A DNA stretch of 64,000 bases from a bacterium (GTDB lineage Bacteria > Gemmatimonadota > Gemmatimonadetes > Longimicrobiales > RSA9): assembly GCA_003242735.1 (NCBI GenBank), contig QGVH01000018.1:1-64000 (forward strand), read 5' to 3'. The notes under the pieces were generated by a model that was not told the origin of the DNA, searched no databases, and was given only the letters and a program-made list of their open reading frames with translations. Below, piece after piece: positions 54,477 to 64,000 of this stretch (within the stretch, counting starts at the first letter, position 1; every line of letters begins with the position of its first letter). Position numbers and translations under genes: made by a program.

Positions 54477-54950
54477 CTAGGAGACCATGTCGTGGAGGGT
54501 GACGAGCTCCAGCACCGCGAACCGCCGCTCGCCGGCCGGCAGACGCACGGGGACTTCGTCGCCGACGGCACGGCCGAGCAACGCCTGGCCGAGCGGCGAC
54601 GCCATGGAGATGTGGCCGGCGTCGAGGTCGATGAAGTCGCCAGTCACGAGGGTGTATTCGACCTCTTCGCCCGTGGCGAGGTCCTTCAGCCGGACGCGGG
54701 ATCCGAAGCCGACCCGGTCCACCGGGAGGTGCTTCACATCGATCCGCGAGAGCTCGCTCATGCGCTGCGTGATCTGGTGGATGCGGGCCTGGACGAAACG
54801 TTGCCGATCCAGCGCGGACTGGTACTCGGCGTTCTCGCTGAGGTCTCCCAGCTCCACCGCTTTCCGGATGACGGCCGGCAGGACGACGTTGAGCTCATGG
54901 CCGAGGCGCTCCAGCTCTTCGGAGAGCCGCGCCTTGATCTGTTCCAGCAT
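54477..54950 (-). CDS. greA: transcription elongation factor GreA/GreB family
   Basis: A 157-residue cytosolic factor. The coiled coil with the catalytic acidic tip is ELGDLSENAEYQSALDRQ, where Asp and Glu hold Mg at the polymerase active site; the C-terminal FKBP-like domain has SRVRLKDLATGEEVEYTLV and ISMASPLGQALLGRAVGDEV. It rescues backtracked RNA polymerase by stimulating RNA cleavage. The N-terminal helix is MLEQIKARLSEELERL. TTGGAG lies seven bases before the ATG at 54950. It is downstream of the PPK fusion gene on the same strand, with a 122-base gap carrying hairpin sequence. Confidence 0.93.
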   Translation of the reverse strand: MLEQIKARLSEELERLGHELNVVLPAVIRKAVELGDLSENAEYQSALDRQRFVQARIHQITQRMSELSRIDVKHLPVDRVGFGSRVRLKDLATGEEVEYTLVTGDFIDLDAGHISMASPLGQALLGRAVGDEVPVRLPAGERRFAVLELVTLHDMVS

Positions 54951-55020
54951 GCCCGACTCCAAGTGGGAAAGAGAATGGATCCACGGGCCGGTGGGCCAGC
55001 GCGCCCGGGAAACCAGAGGA

Positions 55021-55072: not shown

Positions 55073-58000
55073 CTAACCCGGAGGAGGCCGATGGTTCCAG
55101 TCCCTCGGCGGATGACGCGGGCCGGCGCCCGCTCCGACCGGCGGGTCGAACGGGATCGCGCCAGCCGTGCCGATCCCGCCGATCACCTCGTTCCCGCGCA
55201 CGTAGGCGCCGTCGGCGCGCAGCTCCCAGGCCTCGGGGTGCTCGAGGACGGTCGTGAGCATGCGGTCCAGCGCGGCGCGGTGTTCGGGATCGTCCACCGG
55301 TGTGACGACCTCGACGCGGCGCAGCAGGTTGCGCGGCCGCCAGTCCGCCGAGCCGATGTAGTATTCCGGATCGCCGGCGTTCCCGAAGTAGAAGATGCGG
55401 CTGTGCTGGAGCAGGCGGCCGAGCAGACTGACGACGCGGATGTTCTCCGAGATGCCGGGCAGCCCCGGCCGCAAGCGGCAGATCTCGCGGACGGCCAGCT
55501 CGATGCGCACGCCCGCCTGTGAGGCGCGGTACAGCGCCGCGACGATCCTCCGGTCCGACAGGCCGTTCATCTGCGCACGGATGTGCCCACCGCGACCTGC
55601 GCGTGCGTGCTCGATCTCGCGCTCGATCAGCTCCAGGAAACGGCGTCGCATCTGGAACGGCGAGACGAGGAGCCGGTCGAGTCGGGCCGAGGCCGAGTAG
55701 CCGGTCAGCAGACCGAACACCGCGTTCAACTCCTCGCCCAGCCCCGGGTCGGCGGTGAGGATGCCGACGTCGGTGTAGGCGGCAGCCGTGCTCGCGTTGA
55801 GGTTTCCCGTGCCGAGGTAGATGTAGCGGCGGATGCCGTCCGGCTCGTTGCGGAGCACGAGCGCGATCTTCGCGTGGACCTTGTAGCGCGAAGGGCTGAA
55901 GACGACGTGCACGCCGGCGGCGTCCAGCGAGCGGGCCCACTCGACGTTACGGCGCTCGTCGAAGCTGGCCTTGAGCTCGACCAGCGCGAACGCGTCCTTG
56001 CCGGCCGCGCGGGCGCGTGCGAGCGCCCGCACGATCTCGGAGTCCGGGTCCGTGCGGTAGAGTGTGGTCTTGATGCCGACGACGTCCGGATCGTCTGCGG
56101 CCTCGGCGAGGAAGCGGCCGACGGTCGCGTCGAAGGAGTGGTCGGGGAACGCGATCAACCGGCTGCGTTCACGGATCTGGTCGAAGATGGACCGGTCCGG
56201 CGCGAACGGCGAGCTGCGCTCCAACGGCGGGTACTTGAGCTCCGGTGCATCGAGCGCCGCGATCTCCGACAGCCCGGCGAGGTCCACGAGCCAGGGAACG
56301 GCGTAGATGTCGGCTTCGCCCAGCGTGCTGAGCGACTCGGGCGCCTCGAAGCGGAGCTCGCGGAGGAGATGGCGGCGCATCTCCTCCGGCATCGCCTCCT
56401 CGACCTCGAGGCGGACGGCCTGGCGGAACGGGCGCGTCGCGATCTCGTCCTCGACGGCGGCCATCACGTCGCCCACCTCGTCGGCGGGCAGGCGGCTCGT
56501 GGCGCTGCGCGTCACGCGGAACGTGTGGGCTCGCACGACCTCGAGCCCGGGGTACAGGCGCGGCAAGCCGCCGAGGATCAGCTCCTCCAGCGGCACGTAG
56601 CGGCGGCCGTCCGGGAGCGGAACGAAGCGTGGCAGCTCGCCGGGCAGCTCGATGGCGACGAAGCGGTCGAGCCGGCTCTCCGGCAGCCGCACGATCGCGG
56701 CGATGGCGGGCCTGAGGTTGCGGATGTGCGGGAACGGGTGGCTGGGGTCCGCGACGAACGGCGTGATCAGCGCCTCGATGCGCGCCCAGTGACGCTCGCC
56801 GAGGAGCGTGCGCTCGGCGTCGTCGAGCTCGTTCCAGCGGACCACGCGAAGGTTCTCGCGCGCGAGGTCGGGCAGCAGCGACGTCGTCAGCACGCGATAC
56901 GCGCGTCGCGCGACCTGGCGCGCACGGATGCGGATGACCTCGAGCTGTTCTGCCGGAGTCAGGCCATCCGGCGTGCGGCGGGTGACGCCGGCGGCGACCT
57001 GCTCCTTGGATTCCGCGACGCGCGTCATGAAGAAGTCGTCCTGACGCGCGCCGAAGATGGCGAGGAACCGGACGCGCTCGAGCAGGGGGATGCTCCGGTC
57101 CTCGACCATGACGAGGATGCGCTCATCGAAGGCGAGGCGGCAGAGCTCGCGGTTGAGGAGGAGCTCGGGGCGTGCCTCCTTGGGCGCGAGCACGTCCGCG
57201 TCGTCGTCGCTCTCGGGCGCGTATGCGGCGAGGTCCAGCGGCTCCGAGGCCGCTCCGGTCGCCGGCGTCGGGATCGTCACGGCGTGGGCCGGCAGGTCGG
57301 AGCGCAGGACTACCTCGAGGGCAGCGAGCGTGCGTGCGTCCCGGAGTTGCGGCGAGCCCGCCGCCTGGAGCACGTGTTCGAGGGAGAGCCACGTGCATTG
57401 GCCGCCCCCGATCGCGTCGGGCTCGATGCCCTCGGCGAGCCAGACCTCGAGCGCGGGGCGCTGGCTGTCCCCCGGGCTGGTGCCGAGGATGCGGACCCGG
57501 CCGCGCACGCCGCCGAGCCAGCCGCGCAGCACGCGGTGGCAGGCGTCGCGTCCGGAACCGGGCCCGGTGGGGACGCGCAGCCCTTCGCCGCCGGAGCGGC
57601 ACAGCGCGATGCGCCCGTTGTGGTAGGCGACGACGGCGACCTCTCGCGCGGCGTGGAGCCGCCTGGCCAGCTCCTCGCCCTCCAGCGCCGAAACGAGCTC
57701 GCGGGCGCGACTCGCCAGGTCGCCCAGCAGCGGCCGCAGGCCGTACCCCTCCTCGAACGTCCGGACCAGCCCTTCGAAACGGCCCGGCGGCGCCTCCGGC
57801 ATCCGGATCTCGACCTCGTACAGCTCGCCGGAGGTGTCGCCGCGGCGCACGGTGGCGATGTCGTACGCGATGTGTACGGGCGCCGGCGCGTCGCCATCCG
57901 CGCGCGCGACCCGCAGCCGCCGCGTCACGCCGAGCTCGAGGACGATGTCGAGCAGCGATGGATCGCAGAGTGCGCGGACCACGCGCGTCGGCTCACACGC

Positions 58001-58315
58001 GTGGGCGAACAGATCGGATGGAGCGAGATCCGGCACCCTGGCCTCGGCGCGACGCCGCCGGACCACGCCCCCCGTCGCCCTTTCCCGAACATCCACGCCG
58101 AGGAGGTGCGTGCCGTCCTGATGGATCGACAGGCAGACGGTCGCGCCGCGCCGCTCGAGGTCGTGGCCGGGCGTGTCGTAGTAGAGCGCGCGGAAGAGGT
58201 CCAGCTCGATACGCTCCTCGTGGAACCCCGGCGGCAGCGGCTCGCCGAGCAGCCATTCGAGGATCTCGCCACTCGGGACCTCGAAACGGAGGATCCGCTC
58301 GCCGAGCATCCCCAT
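55073..58315 (-). CDS. ppk1: CYTH - Nudix-like - polyphosphate kinase 1 fusion
   Basis: A 1080-residue cytosolic protein, about 390 longer than normal PPK1. Residues about 3-215 are a CYTH (triphosphate tunnel) domain: FHEERIELDLFRALYYDTPG and LYEVEIRMPE are typical. Residues about 224-345 look like a degenerate Nudix domain (EVAVVAYHNGRIALCRSGGE). From about 385 there is PPK1: ELLLNRELCRLAFDERILVM, VVGIKTTLYRTDPDS, the phospho-His region YKVHAKIALVLR and the second His in LLQHSRIFYF. PPK1 makes polyphosphate from ATP. ATG at 58315 is two bases after the preceding stop. The CYTH part could bind or process triphosphates or polyphosphate. Confidence 0.9.
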   Translation of the reverse strand: MGMLGERILRFEVPSGEILEWLLGEPLPPGFHEERIELDLFRALYYDTPGHDLERRGATVCLSIHQDGTHLLGVDVRERATGGVVRRRRAEARVPDLAPSDLFAHACEPTRVVRALCDPSLLDIVLELGVTRRLRVARADGDAPAPVHIAYDIATVRRGDTSGELYEVEIRMPEAPPGRFEGLVRTFEEGYGLRPLLGDLASRARELVSALEGEELARRLHAAREVAVVAYHNGRIALCRSGGEGLRVPTGPGSGRDACHRVLRGWLGGVRGRVRILGTSPGDSQRPALEVWLAEGIEPDAIGGGQCTWLSLEHVLQAAGSPQLRDARTLAALEVVLRSDLPAHAVTIPTPATGAASEPLDLAAYAPESDDDADVLAPKEARPELLLNRELCRLAFDERILVMVEDRSIPLLERVRFLAIFGARQDDFFMTRVAESKEQVAAGVTRRTPDGLTPAEQLEVIRIRARQVARRAYRVLTTSLLPDLARENLRVVRWNELDDAERTLLGERHWARIEALITPFVADPSHPFPHIRNLRPAIAAIVRLPESRLDRFVAIELPGELPRFVPLPDGRRYVPLEELILGGLPRLYPGLEVVRAHTFRVTRSATSRLPADEVGDVMAAVEDEIATRPFRQAVRLEVEEAMPEEMRRHLLRELRFEAPESLSTLGEADIYAVPWLVDLAGLSEIAALDAPELKYPPLERSSPFAPDRSIFDQIRERSRLIAFPDHSFDATVGRFLAEAADDPDVVGIKTTLYRTDPDSEIVRALARARAAGKDAFALVELKASFDERRNVEWARSLDAAGVHVVFSPSRYKVHAKIALVLRNEPDGIRRYIYLGTGNLNASTAAAYTDVGILTADPGLGEELNAVFGLLTGYSASARLDRLLVSPFQMRRRFLELIEREIEHARAGRGGHIRAQMNGLSDRRIVAALYRASQAGVRIELAVREICRLRPGLPGISENIRVVSLLGRLLQHSRIFYFGNAGDPEYYIGSADWRPRNLLRRVEVVTPVDDPEHRAALDRMLTTVLEHPEAWELRADGAYVRGNEVIGGIGTAGAIPFDPPVGAGAGPRHPPRDWNHRPPPG

Positions 58316-58317
58316 CG

Positions 58318-61062
58318 CTAGTATGGCAACCCGAGCCAGGCGTAGAGCCGCGTGCGCCCGCCGCGCGCAACGGCCGCGCTCACGACCTGACCCAGCGTCG
58401 CGTACCACAGCCCCACGCCCGCGCCGACGTGCCAGCCGTCGTTGGAGTCGCCGTCGAAGAAGACGCGCGCGGCGTCGGCGAACGCGAGCGCGCCGAGTTC
58501 ACCCGCGGTGAGGAGCGTGACGCGCGTGATCGGCCAGCGGAGCTCCGCGCTCCCGAACAGCGATGCGTCGCCCGCGTAGCGGCGGGAGACGTAACCGCGT
58601 AGCGAATGCCGGCCGCCGATGAACGCGGCCTCCTGGACGGGGAAGTCGCCCCAGACGCGCTCGCCGCCCGTGCGGAACGCCAGGACGGGGCCCGTCGGTC
58701 CGCGGAGCGGCAAGTAGTACGCGCCGACCACCTCCACATCCGCGAAGTCGTCCGCCTCGCCGTCCACGAACGGCCAGAAGCCGGCCTGCACGTCCACGGT
58801 GAAGCCGCGCCGCGGCACGGGCTGGCCGTCGGTGCGCTCCAGCTCCGCATCGAGGATCGCGCCGATCTGGCCGAACGGGCTGCTGCCAGGGGGCCGCAGG
58901 AGGCTCAGCGTGCTGCCCCGCTCGAACCGCGGATCGCGGTACACGAACGCCGGGCCGACCGAGATCCGCGCCCGATCACCGCGCCCTCCGTAGCGCGGGC
59001 GCCAGTCCAGTGTGGCCGCGGCGGACAGCTCGGTCTGCCTCACGGTGGCGCGGTCGGTGTCGAACTCCGGTGTGTCGTTGCCGAAGCCGAAGAAGCGCAC
59101 AGCGCCGAACCGAACGGCGCGCGCGAGGAGCGAAAAGCCGAAGGGCGAGTTCTCTCGGCGGACATCACCATCCAGCTCGATGCCGAAATCGAACGGCCCG
59201 GGCGCGAAGAGGACCGTCAACCGCACGCGCGAGGCGTAAGGGACGTGGCGGAACCCGTAGTACGTTTCGACGGGCCCGAAGCCGACCACGAGACCCGTGC
59301 CCAACTCGAAGTCCGCCGTGGGTCGCCAGGAGAAAGTCGAGCCGTAGTCCCGATAGCGGTCCCCGCCGATCTTGTGGACGACCCAGTCGTCGTCGCCGTA
59401 CGGCTTGCCGTCAGCGTTGCCTGCGTCCTCGTCATCGGCGGCGCCGGCTCCAGGCGGCATCTCACCGTGCGGGGCCGGCTGCGCATCCGCGGCCACCGCC
59501 GCCTCTGGCCCCGGGCTCAACGACGATGCGGGCACTTCGAAGCGGAACGGCCGCCGCTCCACGCGCGTGCGCGGTCCCGTGATGAAGGTGTTCTCCCCGT
59601 GCGCGTCATACAGCACGGTTCGGCCGCGGCCGCCCGCAGCGACCGTCGAATCGACGAGTACATCGTCCCCGTGGCCGCCGATCACCCGCACGATGATGTC
59701 GCTCGTCACCTCGCCCCGGACCACGGCGTGATCGTCGCCGCCGTGCAGGTAGATCCGCACCTCGCGGGTCTCGGTCGGGACGAAACGCCGGTGGAAGTAC
59801 GGTTCTTGGCGGCCGCCGGCGTCGCCATCGGCCACGGCCATGGCACTCGCTGCGCCCGGATAGAGCCGCACGTCCACTGTGCCATCCGCGAGCCGGACGA
59901 CTTCGAGCCGGTCCGGCTCGTGCGTGCCGTGCACATCCACGTCCACGGCCAGCCACTCGTAGTAGTCGAGAGAGACCTCGCGCAGCCGGTCGCGGCGCGC
60001 ACGCAGGTCGCGCTCGAGCCGCGCGCCTTCCATGGCGCGGTACGGCGCCGGGAGCTGCGCGATCGCCCGGTCGATGACGTCGTCCGTGATCCGTGTCTGG
60101 ACTGCGGCCGTCACGCTGTCCCACGTGCGACGATCCAGGTCGCTCAAGAGCGGACGCTCGTAGTCCACCGCCTCGAACACCAGCGAGCGTCGGTCGGGGT
60201 AGTCGGGGCCGAACGCGACCAACTTCGGATAGATGCGGCGCGCGATGCCGCCCAGCACGCCGTTCGAGTTCATGAACGCGCCGTCGCGGTCGAGTGGGAT
60301 GGGCCGCCAGCGGTAGTACGCGCCCTCGCGCTCGGGCCGCGCCCACCGCCACTGGTCCTCACTGCGATCCGTGTCGTTGATCAGGAAGTCGACGAGGCGC
60401 GCGGCGAGGTACTCGCGGCTGTCTACGCGGTCCGCAGGTTCCTCGACCAGCCGCTCCAGCATCCGCTCCATCGCGACGACCCTGCGCGAGCCCGCGAACC
60501 CGGGCGTCCCATCGGGCCCCTCGTCTGGCCGCTCGAACAGCACGCCCAGCATCCCCGCGAACTCCTCGCGGAACTCGCCCAGCCGCGGGTCGTCCGGCAT
60601 GACGAACACCCGCGCTGGCGGGTACAGCAGCCCCACGGCGTCCTGGATCGGCCCCACAGCGGCCTCCGCCGTGGGGAACAGCGCGCTGGTCTGGTCCTGG
60701 ATCAGGATGCCGGCCGGCGTGCCGCGCAGGTCCCGGGGCAGCGACTTCTGCACGAACTTGTCCACGGAGCGGAAGACGTAGCGCCGCCCGTCCGCGCCGC
60801 GCATGTGCAGCGTCGTGCTCTGGTTGCCCCCGGTGCGGAACGGTTCGAGCCCGCCGGCGAAGCTCCCGAGGTCCAGCACCGGTGCGCGGATCGGCGTGAG
60901 CCAGAGGTGGCGCCAGTTCTCGCCGAGGAAGAACTCCTGGACCCGGTCGGCTGCGTAGCGCGGGCCGGGAACGACCTCCGCCGAGTCTCGTTGCGCAAAC
61001 AGCGCGGCGGGTACGCACAGCAGCGCCAGCACACCTCCCGCGCCGATCCTTCCGAGCGCCAT
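58318..61062 (-). CDS. kinase-like / BamA-like outer-membrane protein
   Basis: A 914-residue exported protein. Signal peptide (GGVLALLCVPAALFAQ). Residues about 80-265 have kinase-like landmarks: a Lys in YVFRSVDK, then LINDTDRSEDQWRWA and PLDRDGAF, which recall the DRH-x2-N and D-x-D metal motifs of CotH/Fam20C-type kinases, but with Ser for His. A periplasmic beta domain follows, then a C-terminal surface-antigen (D15/BamA) barrel from about 560, ending GLPY (terminal Tyr). AGGAG six bases before the ATG at 61062. The gene lies between DUF4956 and CYTH-PPK1, stops and starts within three bases of each, so the three form one operon. Confidence 0.7.
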   Translation of the reverse strand: MALGRIGAGGVLALLCVPAALFAQRDSAEVVPGPRYAADRVQEFFLGENWRHLWLTPIRAPVLDLGSFAGGLEPFRTGGNQSTTLHMRGADGRRYVFRSVDKFVQKSLPRDLRGTPAGILIQDQTSALFPTAEAAVGPIQDAVGLLYPPARVFVMPDDPRLGEFREEFAGMLGVLFERPDEGPDGTPGFAGSRRVVAMERMLERLVEEPADRVDSREYLAARLVDFLINDTDRSEDQWRWARPEREGAYYRWRPIPLDRDGAFMNSNGVLGGIARRIYPKLVAFGPDYPDRRSLVFEAVDYERPLLSDLDRRTWDSVTAAVQTRITDDVIDRAIAQLPAPYRAMEGARLERDLRARRDRLREVSLDYYEWLAVDVDVHGTHEPDRLEVVRLADGTVDVRLYPGAASAMAVADGDAGGRQEPYFHRRFVPTETREVRIYLHGGDDHAVVRGEVTSDIIVRVIGGHGDDVLVDSTVAAGGRGRTVLYDAHGENTFITGPRTRVERRPFRFEVPASSLSPGPEAAVAADAQPAPHGEMPPGAGAADDEDAGNADGKPYGDDDWVVHKIGGDRYRDYGSTFSWRPTADFELGTGLVVGFGPVETYYGFRHVPYASRVRLTVLFAPGPFDFGIELDGDVRRENSPFGFSLLARAVRFGAVRFFGFGNDTPEFDTDRATVRQTELSAAATLDWRPRYGGRGDRARISVGPAFVYRDPRFERGSTLSLLRPPGSSPFGQIGAILDAELERTDGQPVPRRGFTVDVQAGFWPFVDGEADDFADVEVVGAYYLPLRGPTGPVLAFRTGGERVWGDFPVQEAAFIGGRHSLRGYVSRRYAGDASLFGSAELRWPITRVTLLTAGELGALAFADAARVFFDGDSNDGWHVGAGVGLWYATLGQVVSAAVARGGRTRLYAWLGLPY

Positions 61063-61064
61063 GA

Positions 61065-62081
61065 TCACTCCTGGCCGCTCCGGTCCTGGACGGGGATGTA
61101 TTCGGCGGCCGCGATGAACGCGGACCAGCGGTCCTCGAGATCGCCCAACAGGCGGACGGGGTCGCCGTCCTTCTTGAGCCGGACGAGGAGCTCGAGCGTC
61201 GCGATGCCGTCGGAGTGCTGCCGTTTGCCGACGACGCGCCAGTCCTTCGCCGCATCGCCGAGCGCGGCCTCGAGCCCTTCCAGCGCCGCGTCGGGGTCGG
61301 GCGAATGGATGAGCAGGACGCCGTCGGTCTCCATGTCGCTCGCACGGCGCGGCAGCTCGGTGCGGATCGCCGTCCGTTCCTCGGTGCCCCGGGCCACGAG
61401 CAGCCCCGAATCCCCCACCGCGAGCACGCCCTCGCCTCCGCCGGCCACGGCGCCGGCGTCGAGCTGCCAGAGCGCGAGGACGACGAGGTTGAACGAGAGG
61501 GAGATGACGAGCGCGATGTCGAGCGCCTGCACGCCCGCGGCGAGACCGAGGCCGAGGGCGAGGAAGACGTACACCGCGTCGCGTGGATCCTTGAGCGTGT
61601 TGCGGAAGCGGACGGCGGCGACGATCCCCGCGAGGCTGAACGCGAGGGCGAGGCTGTTCTTGACGACGATGACGATGCCGGCCACGACGAGCGGCAGCAC
61701 GATCATCGACTGGACCAACGAGCGGTCGGTGCGCAGCCCACGGGTGTAGCGGTAGACCCAGGCGACGGGGAGAACGAGGGCGAGCGTGCCGAGGATGACG
61801 AGCGCGGTGGTCAGCGCGCGGTGCGGCGTGGGGCTCAGCGCGGCGCCGGTGGGCGCGCGGGCCAGCTCCGGCACCTCCTGGACGGCCGGGAGCACGATCG
61901 GCGCGACGAGTGCATTCCGGACCGCCGGCACGGAGCGCGTCAGGACCGCCGCGAGTCCCGCGGCCCCGGCGTAGTACGCCAGCAAACGCAGGAACGGAGC
62001 GCGCCGCGGCCGGCGCCCCCGAGTCGAACGCTGCTCCCTTCCACCACGTCCCGAGCGGGACCGCTTCTCATCCCAGGTCAT
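61065..62081 (-). CDS. DUF4956 membrane protein
   Basis: A 338-residue inner-membrane protein. After a basic N-terminus there are membrane helices at about 31-45, 90-112, 123-147 and 158-200, including the DUF4956 region (VKNSLALAFSLAGIVAAVRF, then RNTLKDPRDAVYVFLALGLG). The last third (about 240-338) is a cytosolic ACT-like domain (GVLLIHSPDPDAALEGLEAAL). DUF4956 proteins commonly neighbour CYTH/VTC polyphosphate polymerases and CotH-type kinases. ATG at 62081 has GAAGGG upstream. First gene of the operon with the kinase-like barrel protein and CYTH-PPK1. Confidence 0.85.
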   Translation of the reverse strand: MTWDEKRSRSGRGGREQRSTRGRRPRRAPFLRLLAYYAGAAGLAAVLTRSVPAVRNALVAPIVLPAVQEVPELARAPTGAALSPTPHRALTTALVILGTLALVLPVAWVYRYTRGLRTDRSLVQSMIVLPLVVAGIVIVVKNSLALAFSLAGIVAAVRFRNTLKDPRDAVYVFLALGLGLAAGVQALDIALVISLSFNLVVLALWQLDAGAVAGGGEGVLAVGDSGLLVARGTEERTAIRTELPRRASDMETDGVLLIHSPDPDAALEGLEAALGDAAKDWRVVGKRQHSDGIATLELLVRLKKDGDPVRLLGDLEDRWSAFIAAAEYIPVQDRSGQE

Positions 62082-62341: not shown

Positions 62342-63508
62342 TCAGCGCCGCGGCCCCAGGGGGGCTTCGAGCTCAGCGAGCCGCTGCTCCAGCGCAGGGA
62401 TGTGCACCGCCTGCTTCGCCGGCTCGGCCTCGTACCGCTGCTGCTGCTCGCGCAACGCCTGCACCAGCACCGCCGCAAGCTGCGTGTACGAGAGCGAGAG
62501 GTAGCCGTCCGCTTCAGCCTTCACCAGCTCCGGGAAGAGCTCGGCCACCTCCTGCGCCAGGAGCCCGATCTGCTTCTCCCGGCTCCAGCCCACGCCTTCC
62601 TTGAACCGGTAGGTCACCGGCTGGAGGCGGAGCACGCGGTCCAGCACGCCCTCCAGCGGCTCGATCTCCTCCTTGAGCCGCGCATCCGAGCTCTGCGTCA
62701 GCGTGCCGGCGATCGTCAGGTTGCCGTTCTTGAAGAGCGTGAGCGCGTTCGAGCGGCTGGCGTCACTCGTCCCGTTGCCGGCCACGAAGAGCGGGTCGGT
62801 CGCTACCCAAGCATTCGGATTGCCCGCGATCACGTTGTACCGCCCGATGGCGAGGGATGCGTAGGCCTGCGCAGTCGTTCTCTCCCCGAGTGCAGCGGAG
62901 GCACCACCGCTGGCAGTCGTCTGGGAGCCGAATGCAGCGGAGTATTCACCGCTGGCAGTCGTACTGCGCCCGAATGCAACGGAGTAGAGACCCAGGTTTG
63001 CCAGGTCTCACTCACTCCCTGTTGCCCACCCCGCGCGGAAGGCGGCCCTTGCCGGATACCAGAGCAAGCGGACCCCGGGGCCGCTCACCGGCAACGGGGT
63101 GCTGGAGCTGAACGTCCCCGTCACCGCGACGCCGCTGTTCGAGTTCCGCGCACCGCCGAGCAGCAAGTACTGCGGGTGATCGTCCGCATCGAGGCCCTGG
63201 AGCTGGCCATGCACGCTCGGTCCCGGAGGCCCCGGCGGCCCCGCAGGACCAGCGGGTCCGGCCGGCCCCACAGGACCCATCACGTTCCACTCGAACTCTG
63301 TGTGCGCCTTCGAATTGCACGTCGCCGGCAGCCCCGGCACCCCCACCCGGTACATCGTCCCGCCTCCCGGCACATCGCACGCCCGGATCGTGTCCGACGC
63401 CGTGCCTTGCTGCTGCTGCGCCCCCGCACCCTGCACCCCCGGCCCGCAGAGCGCGAAGAGCGCCGCCAGCAGCAGCCACGACCAACGCCTTCCTCGGCAC
63501 GGCTTCAT
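62342..63508 (-). pseudogene. collagen-like / YadA-head / S74 fibre gene split by an in-frame TGA
   Basis: One reading frame from ATG 63508 (GGAGG upstream) to 62342, broken only by TGA at 63008-63010. Part 1: signal peptide, a collagen-like run (about residues 78-97, GPAGPAGPAGPPGPPGP), then a fibre domain to AGWATGSE. After the TGA the frame continues DLANLGLYSVAFG and TTASGEYSAAFGS, TTASGGASAALGE, YadA/Hia-type head repeats, then an S74 intramolecular chaperone domain (SDARLKEEIEPLEGVLDRVL, LLAQEVAELFPELV) with a terminal coiled coil. The family expects Trp (TGG) at the stop position. It is a trimeric surface fibre, now probably cut to its first 166 residues. Confidence 0.75.
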
Positions 63509-63560
63509 GTGGCACCTCCATCGACGGGGATCGACGGCGTGTACAGCCGCGCCGCACGTC

Positions 63561-64000
63561 TCAGCGCGCGAGCGCGTAGTACGTCTCCGCCACGTCCAGC
63601 ACATGCTGGATCGCCGCCCGGTCCGGCAGGCTCTCCGGCGCGTCCGGCAGCGCTCCGAGCGCAGAGCGGGCAGCGCGGATCACGCGGCACGCCGCGTCCG
63701 GCGCAGCACTCGCCTGCGCCGAGCGCAGCGCCGCCGTCAGCTCCGCCGCGCGCTCACTCTCGCCGAGCCCCGGCGCCAGCCGCTCGGCCGCATCCAGCAA
63801 CGCCACCCGAACGTCCTGCTCTGTGGCTTGGCTCACCGTCGCCTGCTCGTAGACCACCTGCGCACGGCACGGCTCCGGGGCGATCGCCGCCCCCGGCTCC
63901 GCCTCGTCGCCGCACGCGAGCAGAACCTCCGCAATCACTGGGAGGACGAGGCTCGCATGGTCCGGTGCGGCGCGGGCCTTCGCGAACCCGCCGCACGCCC
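63561..64000 (-). CDS. partial exported or soluble protein at the window edge
   Basis: The frame is open to the end of the window, so the start is missing; the visible part begins ACGGFAKARAAPDHASLVLP and continues through VIAEVLLACGDEAEPG to the stop at 63561 (about 146 residues). It is helical and Ala-rich (VSQATEQDVRVALLDAAERL, AAELTAALRSAQASA), with three further Cys. It lies 52 bases upstream of the fibre gene on the same strand and may share its transcript. No family recognised. Confidence 0.55.
   Translation of the reverse strand, partial: ACGGFAKARAAPDHASLVLPVIAEVLLACGDEAEPGAAIAPEPCRAQVVYEQATVSQATEQDVRVALLDAAERLAPGLGESERAAELTAALRSAQASAAPDAACRVIRAARSALGALPDAPESLPDRAAIQHVLDVAETYYALAR

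Follow-up and report, generated by a model that had tools for sequence, protein, structure and literature searches.

Three adjacent minus-strand genes at positions 55073-62081 of the window, by which we mean the whole stretch of 64,000 nucleotides analysed here (contig QGVH01000018.1, assembly GCA_003242735.1, Gemmatimonadota), encode a DUF4956 membrane protein, an outer-membrane protein in which a putative kinase-like domain precedes an Omp85-type barrel (kinase-barrel in the following), and a PPK1 extended at its N-terminus by CYTH and Nudix-fold domains. The gene calls confirm the three leftward genes proposed in an initial annotation, neighbouring genes being separated by 2 and 2 bases. 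Such genes have been found to cluster beyond chance, both in their co-occurrence across 200 genomes and in dozens of loci, and the parts that travel together comprise an enzyme that makes polyphosphate, one membrane protein, an exported kinase-like protein and often a phosphatase. We read this set as a modular envelope polyphosphate system, in which an inner-membrane synthase coupled to DUF4956 would serve an extracytoplasmic kinase-phosphatase pair, and we give this reading about an even chance of being correct. In the simplest mechanism, the inner membrane would be the site of polyphosphate synthesis, and its use would take place on the envelope side.

The contig (87 kb) belongs to a 3.71 Mb, 99.6%-complete genome in which DUF4956, the kinase-like domain, the CYTH-Nudix part and PPK1 have one match apiece, the PPK1 match being the fusion itself; no other PPK1 has been found in a PPK1 search (PPK2 was not searched for), and VTC (PF09359) has given 0 matches. 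Among 200 sampled Gemmatimonadota genomes, with co-occurrence statistics uncorrected for shared ancestry, the kinase-like domain has been detected in 59, CYTH-Nudix in 30, DUF4956 in 100, PPK1 in 163, VTC in 3 and Pfam CotH in 14; in one genome scored as negative for this domain (G083), part of a barrel is present where a contig ends. Kinase-barrel and DUF4956 occur together in 48 genomes vs 29.5 expected (p 5e-9), CYTH-Nudix and DUF4956 in 27 of the 30 CYTH-Nudix genomes vs 15 expected (p 8e-7), and kinase-barrel and CYTH-Nudix in 21 vs 8.9 expected (p 7e-7). A single PPK1 match has been obtained in 13 of the 30 CYTH-Nudix genomes.

At the level of gene neighbourhoods, two sets sharing some contigs have been examined, namely 61 Gemmatimonadota stretches (window included), many of which are cut by contig ends so that their neighbour counts are lower bounds, and the best 80 named loci, kept from a contig scan in which at least 571 kinase-barrel loci were confirmed among the 593 pattern matches listed. 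The record titles of these 80 include Gemmatimonadota, Latescibacterota, KSB1, Poribacteria, Acidobacteria, Chlorobi/Ignavibacteria and Bacteroidota. DUF4956 is encoded near the kinase-barrel in 29/61 stretches (28 on the same strand) and 18/80 loci, PPK1 in 19/61 (17 within 5 kb) and in 27/80, a count that includes cut or weak pieces (4 of the 27 have E-values above 1e-60), and CYTH in 13/61. That the genes would stay together in relatives, rather than being scattered, has thus held up; the same cannot be said of the complete arrangement, as all three gene kinds of the window are present in only 10 of the 61 stretches and stand in its order in 6, intervening genes allowed. Because the three-gene set is a minority, a swap-able module describes the gene set better than a fixed one.

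Indeed, both the polymerase and the kinase part have been observed to exchange. The polymerase beside DUF4956 may be CYTH(-Nudix)-PPK1, plain PPK1, VTC, which adjoins DUF4956 in every one of its 3 genomes, or once a DUF4956-PPK1 fusion. For the kinase part, 20 DUF4956 stretches have been compared, 16 from genomes without a kinase-barrel match and 4 from kinase-barrel genomes. A CotH-like protein on the same strand, exported as judged by eye, is encoded in 15 of the 16, the remaining locus (G089) adjoining VTC with a weak CotH match nearby, and is missing from 4/4 loci of kinase-barrel genomes. Across 18 further CYTH(-Nudix)-PPK1 loci, the CotH-like protein has been found in 11, a piece of a barrel or kinase-barrel truncated where the contig stops in 3, and neither in 4, while the 61 kinase-barrel stretches hold no match to CotH-like or CotH proteins. 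This separate CotH-like protein exceeds the Pfam CotH (PF08757) cut-off in 1 of 4 members. In four of the DUF4956 loci (L224, L225, L234, L237), the DUF4956/CotH-like pair is adjoined by genes for Type I phosphodiesterases (PF01663) that look exported.

The polymerase of the window, a protein of 1080 aa (ATG 58315 to TAG 55073, minus strand), contains a complete PPK1 catalytic core at 55196-57157, whose four Pfam domains each score above cut-off (98-201 bits) and which gives the fusion a TIGR03705 match of 647 bits (cut-off 466). H814 and H971 have been aligned to histidines of E. coli PPK that we take to be the catalytic ones; in the alignment of 31 fusions, His is kept at H814 in 29 and at H971 in 30, with gaps in the rest. 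The core therefore resembles E. coli PPK1 (1xdo) in its four domains and both catalytic histidines, and differs from it by ~385 additional N-terminal residues. Residues 5-214 of these (57674-58303) form a CYTH/triphosphate-tunnel domain whose predicted fold is clear, with the Pfam matches of relatives, profile search and structure in agreement: PF01928 is matched by 12 of 14 relatives, though not by the window protein itself, a profile search retrieves E. coli YgiF (E 3e-4), and the model, with a predicted local distance difference test (pLDDT) score of mostly 80-94 in this region, matches tunnel enzymes with a Z-score of 15.7 (root-mean-square deviation (rmsd) 3.2, 175 aligned residues) and yeast Vtc4 with a Z-score of 13.0. 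The EXEXK motif, the metal motif of CYTH/triphosphate tunnel metalloenzymes, is degenerate, reading LRFEV in the window and missing in all 14 aligned rows. For residues 223-340 (57296-57649), a Nudix fold is moderately supported, by structure alone, with matches to NUDT12 (Z 9.2, rmsd 3.4, 117 aligned) and NudC (Z 9.1) that both fall in a region modelled with pLDDT of only 54-65; the Pfam Nudix models have matched 0/14 members. The Nudix box (REUxEE) reads R-V-L-R-G-W in the window, and its first, second and third Glu are kept in 0, 4 and 1 of 14 members, respectively. We read both domains as probable binding or regulatory parts, because the usual catalytic motifs are lost in both; PPK1 would make polyphosphate from ATP in the cytoplasm, and the CYTH and Nudix domains would bind polyphosphate or nucleotide and regulate or guide it. 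Two relatives (L210, L215) carry CYTH-PPK1 with no Nudix domain detected.

The DUF4956 protein (338 aa, ATG 62081 to TGA 61065, minus strand) has been assigned by Pfam PF16316 with 49.9 bits (cut-off 30.6, E 3.8e-13). Its hydropathy profile has 3 segments above threshold and 2-3 weaker ones recognised by eye, its C-terminal part is soluble-looking, and a stretch of the type AFxLAGIVAAVRFR is conserved, 59 of 70 homologues carrying RFR unchanged; the 11 others were omitted from the alignment, which skews its conservation line towards RFR. A physical tie to polyphosphate synthesis is a single open reading frame of 980 aa (L292:6960-9899, genome G049) that unites DUF4956 with all four PPK1 domains. 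It is convergent with a plain PPK1, and neighbouring genes are ppx/gppA-, sixA- and CHAD-like (named by eye). We propose that DUF4956 is the inner-membrane partner to which the synthase may dock, and that it may pass the polyphosphate chain outward in the manner of the transmembrane part of yeast VTC; the export or display suggested in the initial annotation is plausible. In yeast VTC, synthesis and translocation can be a single step, carried out by a CYTH polymerase that is joined to a membrane part (PMC10657179). The present system is like yeast VTC in that it couples a CYTH/tunnel domain with a membrane part and with the synthesis of polyphosphate, and unlike it in that catalysis would be that of PPK1 and the CYTH motif is degenerate. 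DUF4956 might instead be an MgtC-like regulator or anchor of the polymerase that translocates nothing, with polyphosphate staying inside and the outer kinase using another donor. For this possibility, which we hold to be unlikely, speak the soluble-looking C-terminal part and a weak MgtC match of one DUF4956 protein (L240:8105-9271, E 0.0016, below cut-off); the coupling of synthesis and translocation described for yeast VTC argues for the other side, and a strictly internal role sits less easily with a kinase-like partner that is exported.

The kinase-barrel (914 aa, ATG 61062 to TAG 58318, minus strand) begins with a signal-peptide-like N-terminus, as judged by eye. An AlphaFold2 model of the full-length protein reached a predicted template modelling score of 0.86 and a mean pLDDT of 86.8. 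The fold of the Omp85-type barrel (residues ~575-914, 58321-59340) is clear from Pfam (39.2 bits, cut-off 24), from the model and from matches to the yeast SAM complex (Z 24.9) and TamA (Z 24.4). With DUF4956, Omp85 and PPK1 recognised by Pfam and CYTH by relatives, profile and structure, the domains named in the initial annotation are right as far as they have been examined. No Pfam match has been obtained for the CYTH, Nudix or kinase-like parts in the window's own sequences, and the kinase-barrel family as a whole is seen by Pfam and NCBIfam through its barrel alone, plus the phosphatase part if fused. The mostly β-structured stretch that precedes the barrel in the model contains no recognised POTRA and was not searched on its own; residues 374-500 (59563-59943), where POTRA would be expected, are β-rich and hold GGxGDD-like motifs. 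Type Vd autotransporters such as PlpD and FplA reportedly place an exported, enzyme-like patatin domain ahead of an Omp85-type barrel. The kinase-barrel shares this order of exported enzyme-like domain and barrel, and departs from it in its kinase-like domain, its β-rich linker and the lack of a recognised POTRA. Two kinase-barrel genes per locus, often in tandem, have been noted in L073, L096, L097, L098, L108, L114 and L116, and in a Pontibacter locus (L170:9902-12487) the gene is split into two open reading frames, perhaps as a decayed copy.

For the N-terminal half (residues ~26-373, 59944-60987), kinase likeness is suggested by conserved residues together with a single structural search. 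R98, K102, D230, D232, R233, Q237, D258 and D260 are invariant in 67 aligned proteins from many phyla; they include a catalytic-loop-like motif at residues 229-238 (60349-60378, family consensus GDxDRHxxQW, window NDTDRSEDQW) and a metal-binding-like DRD at residues 258-260 (60283-60291). Lys, catalytic loop and metal Asp follow one another as expected for Fam20C/HipA/CotH-like kinases, and in this the domain is like the CotH/Fam20C/HipA/PI4K superfamily. The viral structure library BFVD was chosen for a Foldseek search with the full-length model since Omp85 barrels are rarer there, and its top-ranked match was a phage PI3/4-kinase protein (E 1.4e-7), with an iridovirus kinase (6e-4) and a virus protein kinase (2e-3) at ranks 5 and 8. 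The named non-barrel matches are kinases, the PI3/4-kinase protein being the best of them. The possibility that would have told against the initial annotation, namely that this half folds as something other than a kinase, has not been borne out in this search with the full-length model. The result is support and not proof, because the TM-scores (template modelling scores) are low (best 0.20 by query) and the aligned ranges missing. Several further observations weigh against a kinase assignment. The BFVD top matches also include barrels and unnamed proteins, the listed PDB matches of the full-length model are all Omp85 barrels, and a PDB profile search with the kinase-like domain found three unrelated matches and no kinase. 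In profile-profile comparisons with HipA, CotH and the CotH-like protein, for which phosphatase and propeller profiles served as negatives, no significant match has been obtained (12-14% for HipA, under 2% for CotH and the CotH-like protein), and in this the domain is unlike CotH and HipA. Pfam CotH (PF08757) likewise matched 2 of 61 members (best E 0.0023) and not the window protein, whose loop moreover reads NDTDRS where the family has GDxDRH. Under our reading, the kinase-barrel would phosphorylate envelope or surface targets from the outer membrane, with polyphosphate or a product of it as the presumed phosphate donor.

A phosphatase is a recurrent neighbour in these loci. Counted with core-domain models and with antisense shadow open reading frames disregarded, a phosphoesterase of either kind lies near the kinase-barrel in 35/61 stretches and 49/80 loci, being fused to it in 34/80, and a propeller whose Pfam matches are SdiA-regulated and phytase-like lies near it in 16/61 and 38/80. 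In Bacteroidota, to which loci were assigned by their record titles, phosphoesterase, kinase-like domain and barrel form one protein in 32 of 36 loci. In such relatives, the adjoining or fused phosphatase would reverse the phosphorylation. The same proteins also fit the main rival explanation, inward scavenging and storage, according to which exported phosphatases, phytase-like propeller and barrel protein release phosphate from organic compounds, PPK1 stores this phosphate as polyphosphate, DUF4956 senses or couples the two, and the role of the kinase-like domain is to bind or cleave phosphoryl groups instead of phosphorylating targets; a neighbour of one and the same family in 10/20 DUF4956 stretches, for which 4/4 tested proteins match the phosphodiesterase family PF01663, also fits it. 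We nevertheless consider scavenging a possible but doubtful account, as it leaves unexplained both the exported kinase-like protein that accompanies DUF4956 in nearly all loci from genomes without a kinase-barrel and the DUF4956-PPK1 fusion, and the kinase-type residues are invariant.

Other counts tell against our reading. The kinase-barrel genomes include 11/59 without DUF4956 and 38/59 without CYTH-Nudix, and neither PPK1 nor DUF4956 has been found in 27/61 and 43/80 kinase-barrel stretches, partly owing to contig ends. Of the 36 Bacteroidota loci, 2 have DUF4956 nearby and 10 have PPK1 nearby, in 9 of these on the opposite strand, and no phosphatase or propeller relatives have been found in the window's genome, an empty result that is itself weak. 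The stretches with neither gene would suit a third explanation, in which a pseudokinase or a binding domain makes up the N-terminal half, the barrel functions in transport or assembly, and the linkage to PPK1 is a consequence of shared stress or housekeeping clusters; the missing profile-level match to a known kinase family points the same way. We regard this as very improbable in view of the Lys and paired Asp that are invariant over many phyla, the frequent phosphoesterase fusions, and the exchange of the kinase-barrel with CotH-like proteins.

Parts of such neighbourhoods are already known. CotH, a polyphosphate polymerase and DUF4956 are accessory genes beside Gram-positive pel clusters (PMC7112168), and the window's module resembles these loci in that a polyphosphate polymerase, DUF4956 and a kinase-family protein are encoded together. 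It differs from them in its polymerase, which is PPK1 with CYTH and Nudix domains in a genome where VTC has not been found, and in its kinase-like part, which unlike the CotH of pel loci forms a family of its own and is carried by an Omp85 barrel. The association with CotH/VTC/DUF4956 neighbourhoods claimed in the initial annotation is borne out in Larkinella (L128), where the kinase-barrel stands side by side with canonical CotH, VTC and DUF4956 genes and both systems are present. An adenylate/guanylate cyclase gene (L128:12499-13845) separates the kinase-barrel from the CotH-VTC-DUF4956 genes of this locus. In the literature searched, which excludes most subscription journals, DUF4956 is named in 3 papers, and the titles and abstract openings listed contain no description of a PPK1-CYTH-Nudix fusion, of a kinase-Omp85 protein or its phosphatase fusion, or of a DUF4956-PPK1 fusion. 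The CotH-polymerase-DUF4956 neighbourhoods are accordingly the known part, and the PPK1 form, the kinase-barrel family and the fusions are what has not been found in the literature searched.

DUF4956 groups unrelated polymerases (PPK1, VTC) with several kinds of exported kinase-like proteins, and this grouping, to which the DUF4956-PPK1 fusion of one genome adds, offers a testable answer to where kinases outside the cell obtain their phosphate. To our knowledge, the phosphate source of kinases outside the cell membrane is unsettled, and ATP is not expected there. A more far-reaching idea, which we hold to be improbable, is that polyphosphate exported via DUF4956 serves as a phosphate currency for kinases outside the cytoplasm, with kinase-barrel, CotH-like and CotH proteins as interchangeable users, and that a phosphatase on the same outer-membrane protein makes surface phosphorylation reversible. 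DUF4956 and a large family of outer-membrane enzymes also gain a shared hypothesis.

Several further genes adjoin these loci. Directly downstream of the window's module, a gene for a GreA-like transcription factor, recognised by eye, is located at 54477-54960 (minus strand), and upstream, at 62342-63604 (minus strand), lie two genes of which, again by eye, one carries collagen-like GPP repeats and the other resembles an endosialidase-type chaperone domain. In three Bacteroidota loci, HD-domain proteins with the Pycsar effector transmembrane domain (PF18967) flank the pair of propeller and kinase-barrel (L128:6659-7960, L163:6539-7753, L150:12504-13736).

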